Source: Magnetococcales bacterium
GTDB lineage: Bacteria; Pseudomonadota; Magnetococcia; Magnetococcales; UBA8363
DNA: 42,837 bases
Direction of reading: 5' to 3'
Assembly: GCA_015228925.1 (NCBI GenBank)
Contig: JADGCQ010000020.1
Coordinates: 1-42,837 of the forward strand
Position 1 is the first letter of the stretch. The number at the start of each line of letters is the position of its first letter. The translations under genes were made by a program, and so were the position numbers. Shown here in pieces: positions 22,106-27,130 of the stretch. The notes beneath the pieces were generated by a model. The model was not told where the DNA came from. It saw only the letters and a program-made list of their open reading frames with translations, and did no database searches.

Positions 22106-22378
22106 ATGAAAGCGTTGCGCGGATGTGGGGGGAGATGGGGCAAGGGGTTAGCGATGGTTTTGGGATTGGGGATGGCGTTATCGACGGCGACGCCGGTTTA
22201 TGCGGCACCTGGGGATGCGGCGATTGTTTTGGTTGGATTGATTTTAGGTGGCGCACGGAATGTGGGGGGGCACCACAAGGTGATGGTTCCCAGGGGTGCC
22301 GTGCAGACGGCTGAGAGGGATAGAATCTCGGTGCCGGATTGTGGTCGGTCGGGTGTTTCGCCGTGTGGTTATCCGTGA
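22106..22378 (+). CDS. Small secreted protein of unknown function (90 aa)
   Basis: An excellent ribosome site (GGAGG, 8 bases before ATG 22106) precedes a classical signal peptide. It has a basic start (KALRGCGGRWGK), a hydrophobic core (LAMVLGLGMALSTA) and a probable signal peptidase I cut after PVYA. The mature part is about 57 residues. It has a short hydrophobic Gly-rich stretch (IVLVGLILGGA), a His pair, and two cysteines near the C-terminus. I do not recognise a family. The gene is tail-to-tail with the InsA-like gene, with 10 bp between stop codons, and has its own sigma-54-like promoter. Export is well supported; function is unknown. Confidence 0.7.
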   Translation: MKALRGCGGRWGKGLAMVLGLGMALSTATPVYAAPGDAAIVLVGLILGGARNVGGHHKVMVPRGAVQTAERDRISVPDCGRSGVSPCGYP

Positions 22379-22388
22379 GGTTGGCGGG

Positions 22389-22727
22389 TCAACCGGCAGC
22401 GACCTTGGCGGGTTGATTTTTGCGGGGGCGGACACCGACGGGGGGCGCGGAGAATCGGGAGAGTTGTTGGAAGATTGTGAGGACATCGGACTCGGACAAT
22501 TTAAGGGATTGTGATATTTCGGTGGCGTCGGCACCATCGAGGGCGAGTTCGATGATTTGGGTGCGCATGGAAGGTGCGAGGGGTTGCGCACGGTAGTTCA
22601 GCAGGAAGATGGTCCTTTCGCAACGCGGATCTTGGCAACTGTAGCGTTGTTCGCCGTTGGGTTGTTTGCCGTATTTGACCACATTCAGTCCATTGCAATC
22701 GGGGCAGCGTACTTGAGCGAGGGCCAT
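22389..22727 (-). CDS. Solitary InsA-like zinc-ribbon/HTH protein
   Basis: This 112-aa protein matches the pattern of IS1 InsA. A zinc ribbon near the N-terminus (CPDC … QRYSC … RC) is followed by a helical HTH-like region (IIELALDGADATEISQSLKLSESDV). InsA normally is the DNA-binding half of the IS1 transposase and a repressor, made with InsB by frameshifting. Here there is no InsB frame, no transposase core and no inverted terminal repeats, and the C-terminus ends in a basic tail. AGGAG is well placed before the ATG. A sigma-54-like sequence lies about 55-70 bp upstream. I infer a domesticated DNA-binding protein rather than an active insertion sequence. Confidence 0.7.
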   Translation of the reverse strand: MALAQVRCPDCNGLNVVKYGKQPNGEQRYSCQDPRCERTIFLLNYRAQPLAPSMRTQIIELALDGADATEISQSLKLSESDVLTIFQQLSRFSAPPVGVRPRKNQPAKVAAG

Positions 22728-22981: not shown

Positions 22982-23569
22982 TCAAACACTGTATTTTAAA
23001 AGAATTTCGGCTGCATCGGCAATTTTGATGAACACCCCCCCGTCTCCCCCCGCATCTGGGTGATGCTCTTTGGCCAGTTGGCGATAGCGGGAGCGGATGG
23101 CGGTCGTATCGGCGGTGTTGGGAAGCCCCAGAACGCTAAGTGCCTCCCCCCGCTTTTCATCCGACGCCAACCGTTGCCAAAAACTTTCGATCATCGCCGC
23201 CACATCGGCGCGGGTGGTCGTCTCCATGTGGTGCCAATCCAAATAATACCCCTGCAAAGGATCGAGCGGGATCACTGCGTCTTCCAGGGGGGCGGATAAA
23301 AAAGGGGTGATCCGAATTTTGAGACAGTGAATCTCCAAAGCACCCAATTTTTGCTCCCAAAGCCGCGTCCTCAGCAAATACAACAGATGAAACAATAAAA
23401 AATGGACATGGAATAAATCCAACGGATCGCTCAGACTTTGATGATCGAAAAAAACGATCTTCTCCCGCTTTAACACTTGAACCAGTTCATATTCTTTGAT
23501 CCCCGCCGGATAACGCCACAAAAGTGCGGCCAACCGTTCCAATAACCGTTCGCGGATTTCAGGGTCCAT
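22982..23569 (-). CDS. DnaJ-related protein with C-terminal J domain
   Basis: This 195-aa protein has an N-terminal helical DNAJ-related domain (residues about 1-125, beginning MDPEIRERLLERLAALLWRYP). A J-domain-like C-terminus follows (EALSVLGLPNTADTTAIRSRYRQLAKEHHPDAGGD), including the HPD motif needed to stimulate an Hsp70. It therefore is a likely Hsp70 co-chaperone. The partner may be DnaK elsewhere; the Hsp70-like protein at 75-2954 is a remote possibility without supporting context. ATG 23569 gives the usual N-terminus; an in-frame GTG at 23614 adds 15 residues but has no ribosome site. It is divergent from the membrane fusion protein gene. Confidence 0.82.
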   Translation of the reverse strand: MDPEIRERLLERLAALLWRYPAGIKEYELVQVLKREKIVFFDHQSLSDPLDLFHVHFLLFHLLYLLRTRLWEQKLGALEIHCLKIRITPFLSAPLEDAVIPLDPLQGYYLDWHHMETTTRADVAAMIESFWQRLASDEKRGEALSVLGLPNTADTTAIRSRYRQLAKEHHPDAGGDGGVFIKIADAAEILLKYSV

Positions 23570-23666
23570 GATCAAAATTCTCGATACCGGAAAAAGGGTC
23601 CAATCGTGGTACACTAGGGAAAATGGATTGCACAGACAAGTCTTTCCGGTTTAAAAACATCGCATC

Positions 23667-25046
23667 ATGACCCCACAGACCCAACCTCCGCCATCCGAAC
23701 GTCTCGCCCGTCAGGTCCAGGGGCTGACGACCCTCCTGACGTTGCAAGAGGAGGCGCGTCAAGCGCAAAGCTTGGCTGAACTGGCCTTTATCATCGTCAA
23801 TGGCACTCTGCGCTTGGTCTCCTACGCCCAGGCGGTATTTTGGCGGGTGACCCCTGGAAAAAAAAATATCCTGACCGCCGTTTCCGGTGCCCCCCGGTTT
23901 GATCCCAACGCCCCGCAAATGGTTTGGTATCGCAAAGCCATCGATGTTCTGACCCAGGCCGCCGATATGGACCCGATTCAGGAGGTCGCCTTGGAACGAT
24001 TGCCGCCGGCGTTGCGTCAGGAAGGGGAAGACTGGAGCCATGCCCATGGAGTATGGTTGCGGGTGAAACATCCCCGAAGTGGCGCAAACCTCGGTGGGTT
24101 GTGGTTGAGCCGTGACCGCCCCTGGGAAGAGGGGGAGCGGGTGTTGTTGGAACATCTGCTCAATGGCTATGCCGAATCGGTAGCCCTGTGGCAGCAGCGA
24201 CCATTGCCAGGTGCCATGATCCTGCGAAAATTGCGCCGAGGGGGGGGGATCTTGATACTCCTGGCCGCTTTGTTCGCAACCCTGTTCATTCCAGTGCGCC
24301 AATCGGTTTTGGCCCCGGCGCGGGTGGCTGCGGTGGATCCCTCCATGGTCACCGCACCCATGGATGGGATGGTGGCGCGGTTTTTTATCCAACCCCATGC
24401 CCAGGTGAAAGTGGGTGATCTTCTCTTCACTCTGGATACCACAGAACTCAATCATCGTTATCACTTGGCCCTCGAAGAATTGGCCCTCGCGCAAACCCAA
24501 CTGCGTAAGGTGGGGCAATTGGCCTTCTCCGAAAAAGAACGGGTGGCCGAAATCGCAACCAATAAAAACTTGGTCCGCGAAGCCAGTGCCAAGGTCGATT
24601 ATGCGGTGGAACTCCTGGAACGGGCGCAGGTCAAGGCGGCAGTCGATGGGGTGGCGGTGTTCAGCGACCCCTATGCCTGGTTGGGGCGACCGGTGCGTTT
24701 GGGGGAACGGGTGCTGGAAATCGCCTCCCCCCAACGTGTGGAAATCGCCATCGACCTCCCCGCCGCCGAGGCGATGCCCTTTGTTTTGGAATCGGAGGTG
24801 GTGCTTTATCTGGATGGTGATCCCCTCAACCCCCTCTCTGGGCGTCTCCGTTTTGCCGCCTATGAGGCGACGCTAACCCCGGAAGGAAAACTGATCTATC
24901 TGCTGAAGGCCGATTTTGCTCCCCACACCACCTTGCCGCGTCTGGGACTTAAGGGGACCGCCAAGGTGTATGGTCGTGAAGTAACCTTGTTTCACGCTCT
25001 GTTCCACCGTCCCATCGCCGCCCTGCGCCGTCTGGTGATTCTGTGA
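23667..25046 (+). CDS. GAF-domain/HlyD-type membrane fusion protein
   Basis: This 459-aa protein has a cytoplasmic GAF-like domain (about residues 15-180), one transmembrane helix (about 193-210, GGILILLAALFATLFIPV) and a periplasmic HlyD-type adaptor part. The adaptor part has a barrel-sandwich half (VTAPMDGMVARFFIQPHAQVKVGDLLFTLD), a short helical hairpin and a second half (VKAAVDGVAVFSDP … LGERVLEIASPQ). HlyD proteins normally link an inner-membrane transporter to an outer-membrane channel; neither is present here. Its stop overlaps the GTG start of the M50 gene by 4 nt, so the two are coupled. The ribosome site is weak. Pairs of GAF-HlyD and M50 proteins are known from annotation of other proteobacteria, with no established function that I can name. 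Confidence 0.85.
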   Translation: MTPQTQPPPSERLARQVQGLTTLLTLQEEARQAQSLAELAFIIVNGTLRLVSYAQAVFWRVTPGKKNILTAVSGAPRFDPNAPQMVWYRKAIDVLTQAADMDPIQEVALERLPPALRQEGEDWSHAHGVWLRVKHPRSGANLGGLWLSRDRPWEEGERVLLEHLLNGYAESVALWQQRPLPGAMILRKLRRGGGILILLAALFATLFIPVRQSVLAPARVAAVDPSMVTAPMDGMVARFFIQPHAQVKVGDLLFTLDTTELNHRYHLALEELALAQTQLRKVGQLAFSEKERVAEIATNKNLVREASAKVDYAVELLERAQVKAAVDGVAVFSDPYAWLGRPVRLGERVLEIASPQRVEIAIDLPAAEAMPFVLESEVVLYLDGDPLNPLSGRLRFAAYEATLTPEGKLIYLLKADFAPHTTLPRLGLKGTAKVYGREVTLFHALFHRPIAALRRLVIL

Positions 25047-27130
25047 CCCCGGAGGCGGGACAGCTTCCGCCATTGCGGCAGGATTTGCGCCTGCTCCCCG
25101 GTGGGGCGGGAGGGGGCGGGGAACCCACTTGGTTGTTGTGGGATCAACCGCGCAATCTGTTCTTTCGTGTGGGATGGGCCGAATTTGAAATGCTTTCCCG
25201 CTGGGCTTTGTGCCGGGAGCCGCAAGGGTTGATCGATGCCGTCAACCGCGAAACCACCCTGACCATGACCTCCGAACGGTTGGCGGAATTGGTGCAATTT
25301 TTAAGGCTTCAAGGGTTGGTACAACCGGATCGTGCCGATTTTCGCCGATATGCAGGACAGACTGGCGTGTTCACCGCATTATTGCACCATTATCTTTTTT
25401 TCAGAATTCCCCTGGTCCGCCCCGATTCTTTTTTGCAAAAAATCTTCCCTGTGGCGACATTCTTGGGCCATGGGGTGACCCTTTTTTTGACTGGAGTGGC
25501 CTTGGTGCTGGGGGGGTACTTCACATTACGCCAATGGGATGCGTTTACCGGTTCCGTGGGGGGATGGAGCAGCCCGGAGGGGATGACCATCTTGTTCATC
25601 ACGATTTTCGCCTCCAAACTGGTGCATGAACTGGGACATGCCCTGGCGGCCAAGCGTATGGGATGTCGGATTCCCGCCATGGGGGTCGCCTTTTTGGTCC
25701 TGTGGCCATTTTTCTATACCGATACCAATGAAACTTGGCGTTTGACCCAAAAAAAAGATCGTTTTCGTGTCGCCATCGCCGGAATCGCCGCCGAATCCTT
25801 TCTGGCGGCCTGGGCACTCTTGGCCTGGGCTTTGGTGGCGGACGGGCCATGGCGCGGCGCACTTTTTTCCTTGGTTGCGGTCATCTGGACCAGCACGCTA
25901 CTCCTGAATGCCAACCCGTTCATGCGGTTTGATGGCTATTTTATGCTTTCCGATACCCTGGATATCCCGAATCTTCATGAACGGGCCTTTGCTATGGGTA
26001 AATGGTTCCTCCGTAGAACCCTTTTGGGGGCGAAACTTCCCCTCCCGGAGCCATGGCTATTGCGGCAACGGGTATTTTTGATCACCTTTGCCCTGGGAAC
26101 TTGGCTTTATCGTGTGATCTTATATTTTGGCATCGCCCTGTTGGTTTACCATCTTTTTTTCAAGCTATTGGGGGCGTTCCTCATGATGGTGGAGGTATAT
26201 TGGTTCTTGTTGGGGCCGATCATGAAAGAATTGGGGTGGTGGTGGCGCAACAGAACACAGATGGCGGCGGGGCATGTCCGGTTATGGATGCTTTTGGCCT
26301 TGTTGGGATGTGCGATATTTTTCCTCCCATGGCATAGCGCGATCAAGATGCCGGCGGTGTTGCGTACTTCGGTCCATGTCAGGATTTTCCCCCCCGAAGG
26401 GGGGATGATTCAAACTCTTGCGGTGGCATTGGGACAACGGGTCAACAAGGGAGATCCTTTGCTGAAACTGGATGCTTCCGAATGGCGGGGGCAATTGCGC
26501 TTGGCGCGATTGGCAGTGGTGCGGTTGCAGGGGGAGTTGCTGCTCCAGGGTCCACAATTTGCCGCCAACCGTCTGGTGGCCGAACAGCAGTTTGCCAGTG
26601 CCAACGCCCAGGTTTTTGGTTTGCTGCGGCAGATGGAGCGGTTGGACATTTCATCTCCCATCGATGGGACGGTGACCAAACTTCGGGAGGGGCTGGTCCA
26701 AGGGATGATGGTGGGGCGAGAAGATGAACTGATTACCATCCGCCAGTATGCCTCGGAGCAGATTTTTGCCTATGTGGCGGAGGATCAACGCGATTTGGTG
26801 CCACCGGGATCCCAGGGGATATTTTATCCCGATCACGCGGGGTATCCGACGATCCCTTGTACCTGGGTGGATGCCGATCCGTTTGCGGTGGCAACATTGG
26901 AGGATGTGCAACTGGCGTCGGTCTATGGTGGTCCCATCGAGGTGGAGCGGATGGAACGGGAAACGCTCCGTCCGCAGTACCCGGTCTTTATCATCCGTTT
27001 TCAGCGGGGGGGCGCGGCGATGGAACAGACGATCGCGGGGATGGTGATTGTCCCAGGACGGCCCGATACGTTGGCGGGGCGGGTTTGGAAAAGTGTCGCA
27101 GCGTTATGGATCCGGGAGACCGGATTCTAA
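25043..27130 (+). CDS. M50-type membrane metallopeptidase with PqqD-like and barrel-sandwich domains
   Basis: This 695-aa protein starts at a GTG overlapping the previous stop (GTGA). The N-terminal 110 residues look like a PqqD-type winged helix. A polytopic membrane region follows, with zinc motif HELGH (195-199) and third ligand region FMRFDGYFMLSD (Asp297), as in site-2 proteases. More membrane helices lie near 345-375 and 415-435. The C-terminal third is a HlyD-like barrel-sandwich/lipoyl domain (about 445-580) in the periplasm. The active-site residues are intact, so proteolysis within the membrane is plausible. I infer that it works as one envelope complex with the upstream adaptor. 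The substrate is unknown. It converges with the AlbA_2 gene (40 bp, no clear terminator). Confidence 0.88.
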   Translation: MTPEAGQLPPLRQDLRLLPGGAGGGGEPTWLLWDQPRNLFFRVGWAEFEMLSRWALCREPQGLIDAVNRETTLTMTSERLAELVQFLRLQGLVQPDRADFRRYAGQTGVFTALLHHYLFFRIPLVRPDSFLQKIFPVATFLGHGVTLFLTGVALVLGGYFTLRQWDAFTGSVGGWSSPEGMTILFITIFASKLVHELGHALAAKRMGCRIPAMGVAFLVLWPFFYTDTNETWRLTQKKDRFRVAIAGIAAESFLAAWALLAWALVADGPWRGALFSLVAVIWTSTLLLNANPFMRFDGYFMLSDTLDIPNLHERAFAMGKWFLRRTLLGAKLPLPEPWLLRQRVFLITFALGTWLYRVILYFGIALLVYHLFFKLLGAFLMMVEVYWFLLGPIMKELGWWWRNRTQMAAGHVRLWMLLALLGCAIFFLPWHSAIKMPAVLRTSVHVRIFPPEGGMIQTLAVALGQRVNKGDPLLKLDASEWRGQLRLARLAVVRLQGELLLQGPQFAANRLVAEQQFASANAQVFGLLRQMERLDISSPIDGTVTKLREGLVQGMMVGREDELITIRQYASEQIFAYVAEDQRDLVPPGSQGIFYPDHAGYPTIPCTWVDADPFAVATLEDVQLASVYGGPIEVERMERETLRPQYPVFIIRFQRGGAAMEQTIAGMVIVPGRPDTLAGRVWKSVAALWIRETGF

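Follow-up and report, generated by a model that had tools for sequence, protein, structure and literature searches.

A gene pair of a Magnetococcales bacterium that probably encodes the inner-membrane half of an exporter of LEPR-leader giant proteins

HlyD-type adaptors are known from type I secretion systems (T1SS) and from tripartite efflux pumps, M50 proteases with a leader substrate from the daptide and epipeptide pathways, and the LEPR-XLL (LEPR-8K) motif from the N-termini of giant proteins. One LEPR-XLL giant protein has been described in Vibrio, in a paper that names no exporter for it (PMC10868602). Here we analyse a stretch of 42,837 nucleotides (the window), which is one whole contig (C122) of the 4.25-Mb genome of a Magnetococcales bacterium, and in it a pair of genes for a GAF-HlyD adaptor and a PqqD-like-M50-HlyD protein (M50-HlyD). 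Comparative data indicate that the pair is probably the inner-membrane half of a T1SS-like exporter of giant surface proteins with a LEPR leader, working without an ABC (ATP-binding cassette) ATPase. The two genes are the following:

23667..25046, + strand: GAF-transmembrane-HlyD adaptor, 459 amino acids, ATG start; open reading frame (ORF) with HlyD_3 above the Pfam cut-off; AlphaFold model confidence (pLDDT) 92.4; kept in 7 of the 8 genomes of the genus
25043..27130, + strand: PqqD-like-M50-HlyD protein, 695 amino acids, GTG start; ORF with Peptidase_M50 (PF02163) and HlyD_D23 above the Pfam cut-off; model pLDDT 89.4

The two ORFs have 4 bp in common, the GTG start of M50-HlyD lying on the TGA stop of GAF-HlyD, as expected for the coupled pair described in a first-pass annotation of the window. 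Orthologues of the pair were found in six of the seven other genomes of the genus, at 95, 76, 70, 69, 67 and 66% identity, and this retention across the genus argues against a chance association.

The two genes belong, in hundreds of bacteria, to a cassette that also encodes a lipoprotein TolC, a small adaptor (MFP1) and a giant; this giant has a basic leader and the motif A-LEPR-[MI]-[LM]-FDGA at its N-terminus and lacks a Sec signal. A search of genome contigs gave at least 595 stretches encoding M50-HlyD relatives; the locus counts given here refer to 77 of the best loci, which were picked by similarity, are rich in Pseudomonas and are therefore not independent. The usual order of the cassette was giant protein, lipoprotein TolC, MFP1, GAF-HlyD and M50-HlyD, with no ABC ATPase. 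GAF-HlyD was located directly upstream of M50-HlyD in 60 of the 71 loci with enough sequence, MFP1 was present in 55 of 69 and TolC upstream in 32 of 64; in Pseudomonas the LEPR giant lay downstream of the cassette, sometimes followed by TolC. The same order was seen in annotated plasmids of Escherichia, Kosakonia, Azospirillum, Magnetospirillum and Burkholderia, the giant being a large Ig-like, DUF4347 or ELWxxDGT protein, and no ABC ATPase occurred in these plasmid cassettes. The M50-HlyD relatives found on plasmids by tblastn were 35-38% identical. For the TolC-docking RLS-type motif in the three adaptors, the shared MFP1 matches displayed, which come from Pseudomonas, sit in the barrel-sandwich part and not in the hairpin.

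The cassette's M50 gene was also found in 24 of 5,426 complete E. coli genomes, with 21 of its 25 places on plasmids; on the E. coli plasmids viewed (L009, L010) it sits with an Ig-like giant. In the genome of the window a further M50-HlyD paralogue occurs on contig C162 (L016:8731-10893), with no adjoining GAF-HlyD.

The neighbourhood comparison thus identified TolC as a cassette member of GAF-HlyD plus M50 pairs. The first-pass annotation had described the pair as having neither transporter nor outer-membrane channel. This holds for the surroundings of the pair in the window, where none was found nearby, and for the family in that there is no constant ABC partner; it does not hold for the channel, since the family has a lipoprotein TolC and a third adaptor, and the genome of the window an orphan TolC-MFP1 pair.

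The same comparison bears on a conventional T1SS, in which an ABC ATPase encoded elsewhere would be used in trans and the M50 protein would only process the substrate or serve as an extra adaptor. HlyD and TolC components are characteristic of T1SS, the genome of the window has many ABC transporters, and ABC genes of T1SS size were located within 10 kb in 4 of the 77 loci (L072, L085, L086, L119). An ABC gene was close by on the same strand in 1 of the 77 loci, however, so that an ABC partner, considered as a candidate component, was rejected as not constant. In addition, the N-terminal leader motif of the clients is tied to the M50 protein and not to an ABC protein, and the sister type of the system, described below, carries SecA instead. 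Such a T1SS is therefore an unlikely explanation.

The clients are recognised by the consensus A-L-E-P-R-[MI]-[LM]-F-D-G-A, preceded by a basic leader. In 28 sampled motifs, which were selected by pattern, the motif had a median position of 31 amino acids from the ORF start and the leader a median net charge of +3. No segment with the hydrophobicity of a transmembrane helix was found near the LEPR motif of the sampled giants, except in an ORF of locus L020, for which the annotated start probably lies upstream of the true one. In two genomes the LEPR giant is fused to a C-terminal TolC domain in one ORF (L020:11020-16953, L193:3109-8787). Another giant with LEPR and DUF4347 (L018:13705-18720) carries a C-terminal caspase-like domain (PF00656, E value 5e-15).

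The association of LEPR giants with M50-HlyD was analysed in 398 genomes of the phylum, a LEPR protein being counted when NF012209 scored above its cut-off in a frame of at least 800 amino acids. Both were present in 64 genomes, LEPR only in 3, M50-HlyD only in 24 and neither in 307 (odds ratio 273; Fisher p 1e-49, not corrected for relatedness). When the window's order was omitted, the corresponding counts were 28, 2, 16 and 304 (p 9e-28, likewise uncorrected). Among 94 LEPR matches listed, 38 had a listed M50 gene at a distance of no more than 40 kb, and in 30 of these 38 cases the two shared a strand. The genome of the window encodes seven large ORFs that match NF012209, two of them above the cut-off, and four of the seven are located in or beside cassettes (contigs C111, C179, C190 and C192).

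DUF4347 is the first recognised domain of many LEPR giants. As a client marker it was found weaker than LEPR and set aside, being associated with cassettes and also present in genomes that lack M50-HlyD. At five inspected loci of such M50-less genomes the DUF4347 proteins had no LEPR motif, and two of the five giants start with Sec signal-like N-termini (L150:9640-17220, L151:9545-16132). Where the genome has a cassette, those giants whose N-terminus is complete have the LEPR motif, recognised by pattern or by NF012209. Since DUF4347 giants have LEPR in genomes with cassettes and lack it in the five M50-less genomes, this small sample suggests that LEPR is an alternative export mark which would be read by the cassette.

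In the genus of the window the pair occurs as an orphan half of the cassette. GAF-HlyD is directly followed by PqqD-like-M50-HlyD in the window as in other cassettes, and no TolC, MFP1 or LEPR giant lies in the same locus, nor in the flanks available at the six orthologous loci; the sole ABC gene in the orthologous flanks lies on the opposite strand and encodes a PstB-like importer ATPase. Elsewhere in the same genome, contig C137 carries an orphan TolC-MFP1 pair (TolC 570 bits, MFP1 217 bits), and contigs C133 and C213 encode LEPR/DUF4347 giants of 4534 and 2355 amino acids with no cassette in the sequence fetched. Because each of these, like the pair itself, lacks the complementary parts, we infer a split cassette in which the window pair is one half and may act in trans with the parts on C137, C133 and C213. 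Contig C214 (L021:4767-6722) encodes an orphan lipoprotein TolC that has no adaptor neighbour.

M50 enzymes often act in regulated proteolysis. An orphan pair could have ceased to be an exporter, the GAF domain sensing a cytoplasmic ligand and the M50 protein cutting a membrane or leader substrate, with no part for TolC. This would fit the usual role of such enzymes and the retention of the pair in the genus with no TolC, MFP1 or giant nearby. Yet the pair retains its two HlyD domains and a complete catalytic site, and matching orphan TolC-MFP1 genes and LEPR giants occur in the same genome, which makes loss of the export function improbable.

The exporter reading is consistent with the domains of M50-HlyD, which are listed here:

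25067..25318, + strand: divergent PqqD-like (leader-binding type) N-terminal domain, residues about 9-92; beta-beta-beta-alpha-alpha-alpha topology in the model, hhalign to the sister family
25625..25639, + strand: HELGH zinc site (H195, E196, H199); invariant in the family alignment, HExxH in 79/79 homologues
25907..25936, + strand: second M50 motif NANPFMRFDG (N289-G298); N289, P292 and R295-Y299 invariant in the family alignment, NxxPxxRxDG in 79/79 homologues
26318..27076, + strand: MacA/HlyD-like periplasmic adaptor domain, residues 426-678; Z score 17.1 to MacA

The protein has both zinc-site motifs of M50 (site-2) proteases, HExxH and NxxPxxxxDG. The intact HELGH site reported in the first-pass annotation is thus confirmed, and degeneration of the active site in the homologues, which would have spoken against a working peptidase, was not seen in any of the 79.

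The PqqD-like domain, also proposed there, stands with a qualification. Its topology in the model, its alignment with the sister family and a match to a leader protease model support it; no Pfam call is obtained in proteins of the window type. In the sister-type paralogue on contig C184 of the same genome, PqqD (PF05402) scored 25.3 bits against a cut-off of 23.4, and an hhalign alignment of the two families runs over their whole length, N-terminus included (E value 8.7e-75). The model of the daptide leader protease (NF041824) matched 66 of 66 family members and that of YydH/LiaK (NF058609) 65 of 66, with the window protein under both curated cut-offs (156 versus 300 bits and 36 versus 225 bits). 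A PDB sequence search with the N-terminal domain as query gave no PqqD match; fold searches with the whole M50 model returned adaptor and lipoyl/biotinyl-domain matches only, which has no bearing against PqqD. On the strength of the sister's PF05402 match, the end-to-end alignment and the leader-protease matches, and given the lack of a Pfam call in the window type, the domain is best called divergent PqqD-like.

The PqqD-like domain and the leader-protease matches would also fit a machine for maturation and export of a ribosomally synthesised and post-translationally modified peptide (RiPP), with the small secreted protein at 22106-22378 as client, as the first-pass annotation had speculated; this is very unlikely, for the clients of the family are giant LEPR-motif proteins, neither a RiPP precursor nor a modification enzyme is among the annotated genes of the plasmid cassettes, and the small protein, which has an ordinary Sec-like N-terminus, occurs beside the 95-96% identical orthologue only and was rejected as not conserved with the pair.

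The domains of GAF-HlyD are as follows:

23697..24206, + strand: GAF domain, residues about 11-180, predicted cytoplasmic; VIA-align Z score about 15 against solved GAF domains
24225..24293, + strand: single transmembrane helix, about residues 187-209; hydrophobic segment RGGGILILLAALFATLFIPV in the translation, helix in the model
24291..24986, + strand: MacA/MexA-like periplasmic adaptor domain, residues 209-440; Z score 16.4 to MacA

Comparison of the model with solved structures identified the GAF fold, the matches being 3mf0, 3cit, 3ci6, 3hcy and phytochromes (root mean square deviation about 3 A). Pfam made no GAF call in the window protein, and PF01590 matched 5 of 51 relatives. The cytoplasmic GAF domain and the HlyD-like domains of both proteins, all named in the first-pass annotation, are accordingly retained.

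Sequence and model comparisons establish the domain content, the conservation, the cassette membership and the association with LEPR giants, and the export role is well supported by them. In the exporter that we propose, the PqqD-like domain would bind the LEPR leader at the cytoplasmic face and the M50 site would cleave this leader within or at the membrane. A conduit to TolC, through which the giant would reach the surface, would be formed by the HlyD domains of the three adaptors (GAF-HlyD, M50-HlyD and MFP1), and the GAF domain may gate export by way of a cytoplasmic ligand. In the genome of the window, the pair would work in trans with the TolC-MFP1 of C137, and its clients would be the giants of C133 and C213.

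The energy source was considered from the sister type. Sister (C184-type) M50 operons encode a LEPR-XLL or similar giant of about 8-10 thousand amino acids, often DUF3467, a long adaptor, MFP1 or TolC, and a SecA-like ATPase of 640-680 amino acids. Among 48 genomes checked, an extra SecA was present in most of the sister type, usually adjoining the sister M50 gene (exceptions G010, G331 and G186), and all 24 window-type-only genomes had the housekeeping SecA alone. No SecA-like protein is encoded in window-type loci, so that no ATPase was identified for this type; the genome of the window does have a dedicated second SecA, beside the sister M50 gene on C184. Given the dedicated SecA-like ATPase that is usual in the sister type, the housekeeping SecA and the proton-motive force are candidates for powering the window type. 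On C184 (L019:5179-9311) the sister PqqD-M50-HlyD gene adjoins genes for a 679-amino-acid SecA-like ATPase, MFP1 and a ShlB-type outer-membrane protein.

Several points weigh against the proposed exporter. All the evidence is comparative, and cleavage of the leader is inferred. The co-occurrence statistics ignore phylogeny beyond the omission of the window's order. Three LEPR-positive genomes have no M50-HlyD, one of them being 57% and one 86% complete; the LEPR match of G028, in a 1014-amino-acid frame, may be due to chance. Conversely, 24 M50-positive genomes have no LEPR match under the counting criteria. DUF4347 is found in genomes with no M50-HlyD, and the PqqD-like domain of window-type proteins lies below Pfam detection. 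The link of the pair to C137, C133 and C213 is drawn solely from complementary gaps, co-conservation having been examined for the pair.

Two neighbouring genes were also noted. The first is divergently transcribed:

22982..23614, - strand: DnaJ-related gene; PF12339 and PF00226; also in loci L187, L188, L190 and L192

This gene is a conserved neighbour in several orthologous loci; membership in the system is not claimed. The second, at 22389-22727 on the - strand, encodes a small protein in which an InsA-type zinc ribbon (PF03811) and a stretch resembling a helix-turn-helix were recognised, and lies between the pair and a sigma-54 activator gene.

We tentatively propose, as a possibility that goes beyond the export role, a distinct kind of Gram-negative secretion, in which a LEPR leader would be bound and cut by a PqqD-M50-HlyD protease that is itself part of the TolC conduit. 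Of its two forms, one would be driven by a dedicated SecA and the other, that of the window, would have no ATPase of its own; in the window's genus one copy would be split across the genome. The machine is widespread and apparently undescribed: no paper linking HlyD with M50, or LEPR with an exporter, was found in the literature searched, although bioRxiv and most subscription journals were outside its coverage and a prior description is possible. The proposal provides the LEPR-motif giants, whose export route is unexplained in that literature, with a testable machine in which a protease that binds leaders is combined with a conduit across the envelope; the SecA of the sister form points to a way in which a conduit of the TolC type might be supplied with no ABC transporter. 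Genetic tests are feasible, as the cassette occurs in many Pseudomonas and the M50 gene in some E. coli.

Compared with T1SS (HlyB-HlyD-TolC; LapBCE-type for giant adhesins), the family shares HlyD-type adaptors, a TolC-family channel, which is not local to the window, and repeat-rich giant surface proteins with no Sec signal. It differs in that no ABC ATPase is encoded with the adaptors, in having three adaptors of which one is fused to an M50 protease, and in the conserved N-terminal LEPR leader of its clients. The daptide (NF041824) and YydH/LiaK epipeptide (NF058609) proteases have the same M50 core, and the daptide model also spans the N-terminal PqqD-like region; the window family, in contrast, is fused to a HlyD domain and serves giant proteins and not small RiPP precursors, the window protein scores below the curated values, and no adjoining RiPP precursor gene is annotated in the plasmid cassettes. 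With the LEPR-XLL/LEPR-8K proteins the shared element is the client motif, NF012209 being a model of the N-terminal motif of giants; in the literature searched no export machine is tied to this domain, whereas here it is tied to M50-HlyD cassettes. The accessory Sec (SecA2) system resembles the sister cassette, where the gene for a shortened second SecA-like ATPase adjoins those of very large proteins, but the sister SecA occurs together with PqqD-M50-HlyD, HlyD adaptors and TolC in Gram-negatives and is absent from window-type-only genomes. Finally, the tripartite efflux adaptors MacA, MexA and EmrA are the closest solved structures to both HlyD domains; unlike them, the window pair has no RND, MFS or MacB pump and carries cytoplasmic GAF or PqqD-M50 modules attached to its adaptor domains.

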